From an uncultured bacterium (lineage in GTDB: Bacteria; Patescibacteriota; Patescibacteriia; Patescibacteriales; SZUA-104), in the NCBI GenBank assembly GCA_913009695.1, contig CAJVWV010000005.1:1-52698 (forward strand): 52,698 bases of DNA, written 5' to 3'. The notes under the pieces are model-generated. The model searched no databases. It saw only the letters and a list, made by a program, of their open reading frames with translations, and was not told where the DNA came from. The position numbers and the translations under genes are program-made. Each line of letters opens with the position of its first letter. The stretch's first letter is position 1. Below, one piece after another: positions 8,537 to 11,232 of the stretch.

Positions 8537-8579
8537 TCACTGACTGGCTTGCCCTGAGCGAGCAAAGCGAGTCGAAAGG

Positions 8580-8662
8580 TGGGCCGGGCAGGATTCGAAC
8601 CTGCGAAGTCCGGAGACGCTTGATTTACAGTCAAGTGCATTAGACCGCTCTGCAACCGACCC
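8580..8662 (-). tRNA. tRNA-Tyr (GTA)
   Basis: GGGTCGG/CCGGCCC acceptor, anticodon loop CTGTAAA, long variable arm, T-arm GCAGGTTCGAATCCTGC. Confidence 0.95.
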
Positions 8663-8665
8663 ATA

Positions 8666-9280
8666 TTATTTATAATAATTAGAAAAATCATTAATCCACT
8701 CTCTCATAAGCAACAATAATTTTTTATCAGAATATCTTATATGTATAAGGCCATACTTCATTTTGCCTTTTTTATCATGATTAAAACTTTCTCTAACATA
8801 CGGCTTGCTAAATTGATTTTTAGGAATTTTTGTTATTTCTGACCAAAATTTTATTAATTTTTTTGGATTTTGGTTGGCATAACAATATAAATATACCCTT
8901 AACTTTTTCTCTTCAACTCCACACACTCTCCTCAAAAAAGCAACAAACACCTTTATCATGTCCACATCACTATTAGCAAAATCTATAATTTTTTCTCCCA
9001 TCCATTTTGACCCTTCACCCCAATAAAGCATAACGCCTGCTGTTTTTAATTCTTTTTCTTTTAACGAAAGGCTATCTTTTAATTTAAAAGACGGTTTTTT
9101 TCTTTGGAATTGAATCGCGCTGTTTTCTCGTGAATTACGGCGAGGTATATCGTGCCTGCGAAAAAAATAATAAACAGCATCTATGGGCGCATTTAATTTA
9201 TCTCCTATTTCACGCGCGCTAAAACCATCCTGATACCATTTTTTAATTGTTTTTAAGTTATCACTGTGAATAGTCGCCAT
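8666..9280 (-). CDS. HTH + LAGLIDADG-like putative endonuclease
   Basis: N-terminal HTH (IKKWYQDGFSAREIGDKLNAP), then GVMLYWGEGSK...DFANSDVDMIKVFVAFLRRVCGV...KLRVYLYCYANQN, reminiscent of LAGLIDADG-like repeats. Confidence 0.5.
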   Translation of the reverse strand: MATIHSDNLKTIKKWYQDGFSAREIGDKLNAPIDAVYYFFRRHDIPRRNSRENSAIQFQRKKPSFKLKDSLSLKEKELKTAGVMLYWGEGSKWMGEKIIDFANSDVDMIKVFVAFLRRVCGVEEKKLRVYLYCYANQNPKKLIKFWSEITKIPKNQFSKPYVRESFNHDKKGKMKYGLIHIRYSDKKLLLLMREWINDFSNYYK

Positions 9281-9412
9281 GCTACCATTATATCAAAGCA
9301 AGCTGACGCTGTAAAGAGTTGTTTTGGCTATAAAAATAAAAACCCTTTAGCAGGGCAATCCTTAATTAATTTAACATAGTTTGCAAAGTTTATCAAGGCC
9401 CTAGTTTACAGT

Positions 9413-9811
9413 TTAATTTAGCCACATCAAAACATCATTAACAACCGCGTAGACTAAAGCTAAAACCGAAAAAACAAAAATAACAATATAATTCCATCTT
9501 GCCTTGCTTGATCGTAAAGCTCTTAAAATATAAACTAAAGCTGCCCGATCCTCGTCAGATAATTTCTTTTTGTGGTGAATTTTATAACCTAATTTTTTTT
9601 CAACAATTAATTTCTCCCTTTTGTTTTCTACGCGATAACGATGGGCAAAATACCAAATAAACCCGATAGTACCGATATACCAAGCAATTTCCACCCAAGC
9701 TTTAGAATATTGGTTTAAAATAACAATTATGCGGTAAGCGAATGTTGCTATAATCCCTACCCAAAAAACTAATAAGCGATAAAAATGTTTACTTGTTTTA
9801 TATCTTAGCAT
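9413..9811 (-). CDS. hypothetical membrane protein
   Basis: Three predicted hydrophobic segments. Confidence 0.55.
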   Translation of the reverse strand: MLRYKTSKHFYRLLVFWVGIIATFAYRIIVILNQYSKAWVEIAWYIGTIGFIWYFAHRYRVENKREKLIVEKKLGYKIHHKKKLSDEDRAALVYILRALRSSKARWNYIVIFVFSVLALVYAVVNDVLMWLN

Positions 9812-9872
9812 ATCTTTATTTTAGCATGTTTTTAGATATAAAAAAACACTGCAACTAATACAGCATATATGA

Positions 9873-9952
9873 GCCGAGACGGGGACTTGAACCCCGGATC
9901 CCTTCCTTACCATGCCCCGCAATATGCGGGGTACCACTAAGCTACATTAAAA
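9873..9952 (-). pseudogene. tRNA-Thr-like sequence A: intact T-arm and 3' acceptor, 5' acceptor mismatched, D/anticodon 5' stem replaced by a hairpin
   Basis: ...AGTGGTACCCCGCATATTGCGGGGCATGGTAAGGAAGGGATCCGGGGTTCAAGTCCCCGTCTCGGCTCA. Confidence 0.7.
9904..9938. repeat. 35-bp direct repeat copy A with internal hairpin CCCCGCA-TAT-TGCGGGG
   Basis: TCCTTACCATGCCCCGCAATATGCGGGGTACCACT, identical to 10292-10326. Confidence 0.97.
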
Positions 9953-9961
9953 CTTAAAATG

Positions 9962-10034
9962 AGCCGTCTTCGGGACTTGAACCCGAGACCCCCACCTTAC
10001 CATGGTGGTGCTCTACCAACTGAGCTAAGACGGC
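9962..10034 (-). tRNA. tRNA-Thr (GGT)
   Basis: GCCGTCT/AGACGGC acceptor, anticodon stem CCACC-ATGGTAA-GGTGG, T-arm TCGGGTTCAAGTCCCGA. Confidence 0.96.
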
Positions 10035-10285
10035 GTATTAATCATATTTTTAATTTCTATATCTAACTGTTTTCCACCTTTTAAACTTTTTAAATATTTT
10101 TCATATTTCATTGCCTCAATCCTTGTTTTAAATAGCTTATAACACATCAACTTTAATGGACGTCTATTTTTAGTCGATGGATTTAATCCCGAGTTATGAT
10201 ATTCTAAACGTTCATTTAAATTGGCTGTAAATCCAATATAACGTCTATTATCTTTAATTGATTTTAATATATAAGTATAAAACAT
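10025..10285 (-). CDS. GIY-YIG family nuclease (standalone, UPF0213-like)
   Basis: MFYTYILKSIKDNRRYIGFTANLNERLEYHNSG...; stop codon lies inside tRNA-Thr, SD lies in tRNA-like half B. Confidence 0.88.
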   Translation of the reverse strand: MFYTYILKSIKDNRRYIGFTANLNERLEYHNSGLNPSTKNRRPLKLMCYKLFKTRIEAMKYEKYLKSLKGGKQLDIEIKNMINTPS

Positions 10286-10339
10286 ATTCCCTCCTTACCA
10301 TGCCCCGCAATATGCGGGGTACCACTGAGCTATCTCGGC
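10286..10339 (-). pseudogene. tRNA-Thr-like sequence B: 5' half only (acceptor GCCGAGA, D-loop, hairpin, GGT anticodon region)
   Basis: GCCGAGATAGCTCAGTGGTACCCCGCATATTGCGGGGCATGGTAAGGAGGGAAT, then ATG of the GIY-YIG ORF. Confidence 0.7.
10292..10326. repeat. 35-bp direct repeat copy B
   Basis: Identical to 9904-9938, 388 bp apart. Confidence 0.97.
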
Positions 10340-10458
10340 GCTACTGCGCTAAAACTTCGTAGTGTAAACTGCAAAACTAAAAGCAAAAAGTTATAAAATT
10401 CATAAAGTTATTGTAATATTAATTGCTTTATGAACTTTATAACTTTATGAACTTTTAA

Positions 10459-11232
10459 CTATAATTCATCAATTTGCGCTTTTATTTCATCCAACTTCTG
10501 ATTTTCAGGATTAACTTCTTTTAATTTTTTATAAGCGTCTAAAGCCGTTATCTTATCTTTATTTATTATACTTATATCAAATAATGTGTCAAGATAACGA
10601 GGATTATTCGGTTCAATTTTTAAAGCCTCTTTAATATTTTTCATGGCCGCCTCAATATCTTCCGATTCTTTATTAACTAAAGATAGGTCATAATAAATTT
10701 CCCCATTATCTCCTTCTTCTAGTTTTATGACATGTTCAAGCGTCTGCTTCGCTTCTTCAAAATTTTTTCTTTCAAAATAAAGTTCACCCAATGTTTGAAA
10801 AGCTTCTATATTTTTATTATCTAAATCAATAATTTCAATTAATTTTTTTTCGGCTTCTTCTAAATTGCCATCTTTAATTAACTCGTCGGATTCAGCCATC
10901 AGCTCATCAACTTTTTTAACGGCCTCTTCTTTCGGTAATATCTTTTCACTTTTATACTTATCTTTTAATTCAAATAACTTACTATAAATCCATTTAAAAA
11001 AATTACCAACAGCCTGTGTCGCGGGCTCTATAAATCGTACTGTTTTTGATCCCGCCATCACAATATTTCTTTTAAGGCGACCGCTAATAATCTGCTCTTT
11101 AAATTTCGCTTCTTTTTCTTTCGGAATGCTTTCCACGTCTAAATTAGCAAGTACAGGAAATTTCCTGACAAAAATAATAATTATAACGCTTAAACTTATT
11201 AAAATTAAAATTAAAGGAATAATATTATACAT
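10459..11232 (-). CDS. membrane-anchored TPR protein
   Basis: N-terminal TM then repeated TPR-like helices (AEKKLIEIIDLDNKNIEAFQTLGELYFERKNFEEAKQTLEHVI). Confidence 0.75.
   Translation of the reverse strand: MYNIIPLILILISLSVIIIIFVRKFPVLANLDVESIPKEKEAKFKEQIISGRLKRNIVMAGSKTVRFIEPATQAVGNFFKWIYSKLFELKDKYKSEKILPKEEAVKKVDELMAESDELIKDGNLEEAEKKLIEIIDLDNKNIEAFQTLGELYFERKNFEEAKQTLEHVIKLEEGDNGEIYYDLSLVNKESEDIEAAMKNIKEALKIEPNNPRYLDTLFDISIINKDKITALDAYKKLKEVNPENQKLDEIKAQIDEL

Follow-up and report, generated by a model that had tools for sequence, protein, structure and literature searches.

Why does a bacterial chromosome hold an intact tRNA-Thr gene and a small nuclease gene between two fragments of a tRNA-Thr gene? 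This arrangement is found on the minus strand of the window, by which we mean the whole stretch of 52,698 nucleotides that was analyzed, from an uncultured, ultra-small member of the Patescibacteria. Read from 10339 to 9871, the locus consists of a tRNA-Thr 5' piece (B), an 86-aa GIY-YIG open reading frame (ORF), an intact tRNA-Thr(GGT), and a 3' piece (A). The initial annotation had given this order, with which our re-derived coordinates agree (Table 1), had taken B and A for the halves of one split tRNA-Thr, and had likened the whole to a tRNA-targeting mobile unit that carries a functional tRNA-Thr.

Table 1. Positions of the tRNA-Thr cassette and of the second tRNA-abutting ORF in the window
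Feature	Position	Strand	Basis or remark
B, whole piece	10339-10286	-	broken tRNA-Thr 5' piece
B, host-derived end GCCGAGATAGCTCAGTGGTA (native tRNA-Thr nt 1-20)	10320..10339	-	100% identity to G002 tRNA-Thr(GGT)
Hairpin CCCCGCATATTGCGGGG in B, in place of tRNA nt 21-29	10303..10319	-	sequence
CATGGTAAGGAGGG (tRNA anticodon-loop and 3'-stem sequence) plus spacer	10286..10302	-	likely Shine-Dalgarno of the ORF
GIY-YIG nuclease ORF, 86 aa	10025..10285	-	PF01541, E = 1.6e-17
Intact tRNA-Thr(GGT) carried by the cassette	9961..10034	-	ARAGORN; Infernal, 67.4 bits
A, whole piece	9944-9871	-	broken tRNA-Thr 3' piece
A, D-arm remnant TAGCTTAGTGGTA, 5' acceptor strand lost	9932..9944	-	alignment to native tRNA-Thr nt 8-20
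Second copy of hairpin CCCCGCATATTGCGGGG, in A	9915..9931	-	sequence
A, host-derived end (native tRNA-Thr nt 30-73)	9871..9914	-	98% (43/44) identity to G002 tRNA-Thr
Second tRNA-abutting ORF, 204 aa, HTH plus unknown domain	8666..9280	-	comparable cassette, separate from the Thr one
tRNA-Tyr(GTA), apparently chimeric	8578..8662	-	3' half native; 5' half closer to ORF-carrying genomes

The split tRNA-Thr gene and the tRNA that it holds

The nuclease gene and the intact tRNA are flanked by a direct repeat that is exact over 35 bp, as had been annotated, and extends over 47 bp with 94% identity. When the region underwent 100 dinucleotide shuffles, the longest exact repeat had a mean length of 11.9 and a maximum of 16, so the repeat is far beyond chance. 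It had been described as a duplication of the central tRNA segment. The segment is indeed repeated, but this is not plain duplication: both broken copies have lost tRNA nt 21-29 (GAGCACTTC) to the same 17-nt hairpin, CCCCGCATATTGCGGGG, which in B has a perfect 7-bp stem (CCCCGCA-TAT-TGCGGGG), and A has no 5' acceptor strand. Neither piece was detected by ARAGORN or Infernal, and neither folds better than shuffled sequence, whereas the intact tRNA does. A split tRNA built from B and A was rejected because nt 21-29 are missing from both. The ORF begins right after GGAGGG, and the tRNA-derived GGTAAGGAGG directly upstream of its ATG is a plausible candidate Shine-Dalgarno sequence. The TAG stop codon coincides with nt 8-10 of the intact tRNA-Thr, an overlap of 10 nt.

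The empty-site comparison proposed with the initial annotation found the unoccupied form of the locus. Two genomes of the same family each hold one intact tRNA-Thr there, G002 at L024:330-402 (sequence GCCGAGATAGCTCAGTGGTAGAGCACTTCCATGGTAAGGAAGGGGTCCGGGGTTCAAGTCCCCGTCTCGGCTC) and G001 at L034:626-698 (slightly different in sequence). The G002 gene stands between the end of a TPR gene and a homologue (80%) of the window ORF 9413-9811, and the neighbors in G001 are likewise those of the window. B is identical to the G002 tRNA-Thr at 20/20 positions (nt 1-20) and A at 43/44 (nt 30-73), so the two pieces together match at 63 of 64. Because these relatives hold a single intact gene to which the pieces align in this way, B and A are, as judged from the alignment, the two ends of the native tRNA-Thr gene, and the proposed split is borne out.

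The tRNA between them is of another type. The native ends, GCCGAGA in B and TCTCGGC in A, complement each other and not the ends of the carried tRNA (GCCGTCT...AGACGGC), which shows further differences from the native one, in the anticodon stem and at other sites. Over 75 nt, the carried tRNA-Thr is identical to that of G043. This genome belongs to another family, and its TPR and TIM proteins share only 41-45% identity with the window's. The carried tRNA is unlike those of same-family genomes. Since G001, a close relative with an aldolase 85% identical to the window's, has a different tRNA-Thr, this identity to a distant genome makes the carried copy look foreign. The cassette thus carries a tRNA-Thr that is not the native one, and in the window a foreign-looking copy has displaced native pieces; in the remaining Thr carriers, B has the acceptor sequence of the intact tRNA, hence a foreign origin cannot be seen there. 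G043 itself (L009) has a hairpin-interrupted 5' tRNA-Thr stub, with no ORF, ahead of its intact tRNA-Thr, and this stub is likely the scar of a lost element in the putative donor lineage. No other intact tRNA-Thr of the native type was found in the window's own assembly, which is about 80% complete.

Several known kinds of element were considered for this locus and rejected. The interval between B and A encodes the GIY-YIG ORF alone, whereas an integrative element with a tRNA att site would encode an integrase and restore the 3' end of the tRNA. Group I introns are absent among the Rfam matches in 9000-11200. A viral carrier was rejected on 0 matches of the tRNA/ORF junction pattern in viral contigs and a single weak match (38.5% identity) of the window protein in phage records. 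Nor is the hairpin a high-copy palindromic repeat, as CCCCGC hairpins occur at 7 places in the genome; in the window, 2 were found and 0.23 are expected. A CCCCGCAAAATGCGGGG hairpin lies within an apparent 23S rRNA gene of the same genome (G000:C6, L041:1501-1517).

Related elements in other genomes

A search for further copies found the unit of tRNA-Thr 5' piece, hairpin, GIY-YIG ORF, and intact tRNA-Thr(GGT) in five more genomes of different families: G060, G070 (Parcubacteria GW2011_GWC2_42_12), G120 (Falkowbacteria), G039, and a Portnoybacteria contig (L051). All five have the order 5' piece, CCCCGC..GCGGGG hairpin, CATGGTAAGGAG, ORF, and intact tRNA; CATGGTAAGGAG is conserved in all Thr cassettes, and a hairpin with the stem CCCCGCA/TGCGGGG stands at the equivalent place in these genomes and in G133. 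A downstream hairpin-bearing 3' piece is also present in G039, G120, and L051. The ORF extends into the 5' half of the tRNA in G060 and G120 and has decayed in G070. In G133 (L043), the stub and the intact tRNA-Thr remain with no ORF, and the hairpin-bearing stub is likely the scar of a lost element. Perfect 10-bp inverted repeats flank the intact tRNA and lengthen its acceptor stem in G039 (TCCCATTAGA/TCTAATGGGA; L006, around 1803-1876) and in L051 (TCCCGCCAGA/TCTGGCGGGA; around 332-404).

Identity to the window's protein is 63-70% among the intact GIY-YIG proteins, compared with 41-47% for the neighboring TPR proteins. The five Thr-linked sequences group in a single clade (SH-aLRT 96; 0/500 shuffles as low). 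Elements of the Thr form are rare: the strict hairpin pattern was present in 3/383 genomes of the class, and a search of 381 sampled genomes of the phylum with the Thr-type protein (E ≤ 1e-27) gave no carrier except its own genome.

Is the element confined to tRNA-Thr? It is not unique to Thr and belongs, as a single branch, to a broad population of GIY-YIG genes associated with tRNAs. A profile made from twelve of these proteins, built from tRNA-linked members so that the statistics call for caution, matched in 80 of 98 genomes of the class. Among 80 loci taken down the match ranking, with other positions in the same loci as controls, a tRNA lay within 300 bp in 54 (3.4% of control positions) and within 50 bp in 31 (1.7%). 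All 54 tRNA-linked genes are on the strand of the tRNA, and an ORF upstream of the tRNA usually abuts or overlaps it. In an order survey with a Thr-only profile, 12 of the 27 non-Thr matches were tRNA-linked within 300 bp, and the linked tRNAs of both surveys cover 17 amino acids. For 14/54 linked genes, the opposite flank of the ORF holds the corresponding end of the linked tRNA (up to 2 mismatches in 14), compared with 16/2634 (0.6%) tests with other tRNAs. G/C-rich hairpins interrupt 12 of these 14 broken copies, typically in the D-, anticodon-, or T-loop.

On a GIY-YIG tree with a short alignment and many unresolved forks, tRNA type clusters (34 changes against a shuffled mean of 51.3; 0/200 as low), if not for every type (Leu, Gln, and Lys fail), and host family clusters slightly (53 against 57.8; 1/100 as low). 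The Thr set is one clade, and on the whole the nuclease lineages are linked to a target gene.

Other loci show variants of these arrangements. Some kin with no tRNA beside them adjoin other RNA genes on the same strand: GIY-YIG ORFs follow tmRNA genes at about 150 bp (L166, L167), and one stands directly before an RNase P RNA gene and overlaps it (L179). In the window's own genome, another GIY-YIG gene (L002:1341-1707; G000:C7) follows tRNA-Ser(TGA) on the same strand at about 70 bp, with palindromic sequence between. At L062:1400-1810 (G059), the 3' end of the ORF and the start of tRNA-Val are repeated upstream of a broken tRNA-Val, which suggests tandem duplication of the ORF-tRNA unit. At L105 (G164:C75), an ORF with a flanking 19-bp inverted repeat has a partial copy of an apparent glycyl-tRNA synthetase gene on one side and the intact start of that gene on the other; broken copy, ORF, and intact gene follow the plan of the Thr cassette, but in a protein gene. 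Inverted repeats of at least 12 bp flank the ORF in 10/78 loci (L092, L095, L103, L105, L107, L124, L129, L140, L144, and L147), compared with 1/539 control placements.

The 204-aa ORF of the window belongs to a family unrelated to GIY-YIG and ends just before tRNA-Tyr. It has no match in G001 or G002 and has homologues in 34/146 related genomes. In 16 of the 19 homologues examined, a same-strand tRNA lies downstream at -15 to +13 bp, and the tRNAs abutted are those for Tyr, Thr, Pro, Trp, Gly, Gln, Arg, and Lys. The last 31 nt of the window's tRNA-Tyr are identical to those of G001/G002, and nt 9-30 match G045/G016, which carry a homologue of the ORF before their tRNA-Tyr, at 18/22 positions, compared with 15/22 for G001/G002; from these matches the tRNA looks chimeric. 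The homologues showed no broken tRNA copy on their upstream side. The AlphaFold model of the protein is good (pLDDT 91) and has no confident PDB match; with a best TM of about 0.3 we do not claim a LAGLIDADG fold, and a nuclease label would be a guess.

How the cassette may move

How did the cassette come to sit in the native gene? We hypothesize, with a probability of roughly two in three, that it is a selfish element resembling a homing endonuclease, which would break tRNA-Thr(GGT) genes and supply a replacement tRNA. The GIY-YIG endonuclease would cut an unoccupied tRNA-Thr gene in its D-arm/anticodon part, and repair would copy the whole locus of the donor, from the hairpin through the ORF and the intact tRNA to the downstream pseudo-tRNA; the joints would fall in the homologous tRNA ends. 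In the end state, which is the one present in the window, the native tRNA consists of two dead pieces and the cell retains the donor tRNA-Thr. Homing predicts native outer ends and a foreign interior, as observed. The ORF might be translated from a ribosome-binding site formed by the GGTAAGGAG of the tRNA, and the hairpin might disrupt the tRNA fold of B and release the GGTAAGGAG site from its partner strand. Loss of the cassette would be costly because its tRNA-Thr(GGT) is the only intact one found.

Some observations do not fit simple homing. The hairpin occurs in both broken copies, and the D-loop of A (GTGGTA) has the native length, whereas simple homing would bring that of the donor. A broken copy was recognizable for only 14 of the 54 tRNA-linked genes, and homing gives no reason why the carried tRNA-Thr escapes cleavage. 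The protein belongs to the GIY-YIG superfamily by its PF01541 match over residues 1-70, and Y5, Y16, G18, R26, and E62 are invariant in both alignments. It is, however, a bare domain and lacks a separate DNA-binding domain like that of I-TevI, and its nearest solved kin are UPF0213 (1zg2, 1ywl) and SLX1, not homing endonucleases, with I-TevI also among the kin.

The kinship with SLX1 is in line with a different account, unlikely in our judgment, in which the mobile unit is a G/C-rich hairpin with a GIY-YIG gene and the nuclease is structure specific, acting on cruciforms or stem-loops. Genes for tRNA, tmRNA, RNase P RNA, and rRNA would then be favored landing sites, and the spare tRNA would result from repair duplication and not be cargo. 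The location of the hairpins in the loops of broken copies would fit, as would the kin beside genes for tmRNA and RNase P RNA and the finding that non-intron insertions in CPR rRNA genes contain GIY-YIG ORFs (PMC11270868). Alone, this account does not explain the foreign tRNA of the window or why GIY-YIG lineages cluster by tRNA type, and the CCCCGC hairpin is not high-copy in the genome.

Might the protein have no part in the movement at all? tRNA genes are conserved and offer homology for recombination, by which a foreign tRNA-Thr with a hitch-hiking GIY-YIG gene could have entered the native gene, whose halves then decayed. The ORF-less stubs in G043 and G133 speak for such passive decay. 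The Thr clade has dN values of 0.17-0.24 and dS above 1.3, and the ORF is therefore under strong purifying selection. This selection, the strand shared with the tRNA in 54/54 cases, the usual abutment or overlap of upstream ORFs, and the presence of the unit in six genomes of several families, the window's included, all argue against decay, which we regard as quite unlikely.

The initial annotation had also raised cleavage of the anticodon region of the tRNA itself by the GIY-YIG protein. The data do not support this; well-studied GIY-YIG enzymes act on DNA, and cleavage of the tRNA gene is the likelier putative role. The action of these enzymes on DNA also speaks against a reading that we hold to be very improbable, in which the protein would be a toxin, or an RNase directed at competitors, with tRNA-Thr as its substrate and the carried tRNA-Thr as a resistant antidote. 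The differences between the carried and native tRNAs, those in the anticodon stem among them, would suit an antidote, but related genes adjoin tRNAs for 17 amino acids as well as tmRNA and RNase P RNA genes, and the carried tRNAs of the other Thr carriers show no sign of recoding. The fragmented source assembly (43 contigs, about 80% complete) and the 35-bp repeat might point to repeat collapse or a chimeric assembly, but A and B differ outside the repeat and independent assemblies hold the same order, which leaves this with a negligible chance.

Meaning and comparison with known systems

Our data suggest that putative tRNA-gene parasites, which would cut and then replace their targets, are widespread and little noticed across Patescibacteria. 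A wider proposal, to which we give slightly less than even odds, is that these bacteria harbor a large undescribed class of chromosomal tRNA-gene parasites, in which at least two unrelated families (GIY-YIG; HTH with an unknown fold) abut tRNAs, include branches that keep to particular tRNAs, and put their own copy in place of the whole host tRNA or half of it; in these tiny genomes, many of the tRNAs may then be element derived and move between lineages by homing. If the account of the cassette is right, a simple selfish gene takes over an essential noncoding gene by replacing it, in a natural parallel to cleave-and-rescue drives. It would also provide a concrete route for the movement of tRNA genes between bacterial lineages, offer a reason for the commonness of small GIY-YIG genes in Patescibacteria, and warn that the phylogeny of tRNA sequences in this group may depart from that of the species.

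In the literature searched, which lay outside most subscription journals, we found no description of tRNA-linked GIY-YIG elements in Patescibacteria. The UPF0213 stand-alone GIY-YIG proteins are of the same family as the cassette protein and include its nearest solved structures, and we found no description of them as tRNA-linked mobile genes. Cleave-and-rescue (ClvR) gene drives share the logic of breaking an essential gene and supplying a working copy (PMC7951863); they are engineered, whereas we infer cleavage by the cassette. In CPR rRNA genes, GIY-YIG ORFs occur in non-intron insertions, mostly at the tops or bases of stem-loops (PMC11270868). They resemble the cassette in their bacterial group and in their location within structured RNA genes. 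However, that study concerns rRNA, with tRNA unmentioned, and placed GIY-YIG outside homing spread, while the cassette has tRNA genes as its targets and restores a working copy.

A functional precedent is SegB, a free-standing GIY-YIG homing endonuclease of phages T4/T6, whose cuts were mapped inside tRNA genes with the motif RAWTSGAAC (PMC13096335, citing Brok-Volchanskaya 2008). In our own reading, this motif would be the complement of tRNA T-loop sequence. The segB gene adjoins tRNA genes, the enzyme cuts inside them, and the inheritance of its own tRNA region is favored; its setting is a phage tRNA cluster, and neither the splitting of one tRNA gene nor the carriage of hairpins is described for it. 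To phage GIY-YIG homing endonuclease families, the protein of the window has only weak matches (phrog_5123, E about 0.001-0.004).

In architecture, the closest system by analogy is the mobile ORF of fungal mitochondria. Such ORFs (Allomyces atp6; Glomus atp6, atp9, cox2, and nad3) bring a foreign replacement for the 3' end of their target gene (PMC3630166). Like the cassette, they combine a homing endonuclease ORF (GIY-YIG in atp9) with a foreign replacement piece, and the displaced native piece matches a close relative. They carry part of a protein gene, its 3' end, whereas the cassette, on a bacterial chromosome, carries a complete tRNA and its displaced pieces contain hairpins. The class of mechanism is hence already known from mitochondria and phage; what appears to be new is its form at bacterial tRNA genes, in which a complete rescue tRNA stands with remnants, interrupted by hairpins, of the gene that it replaced.
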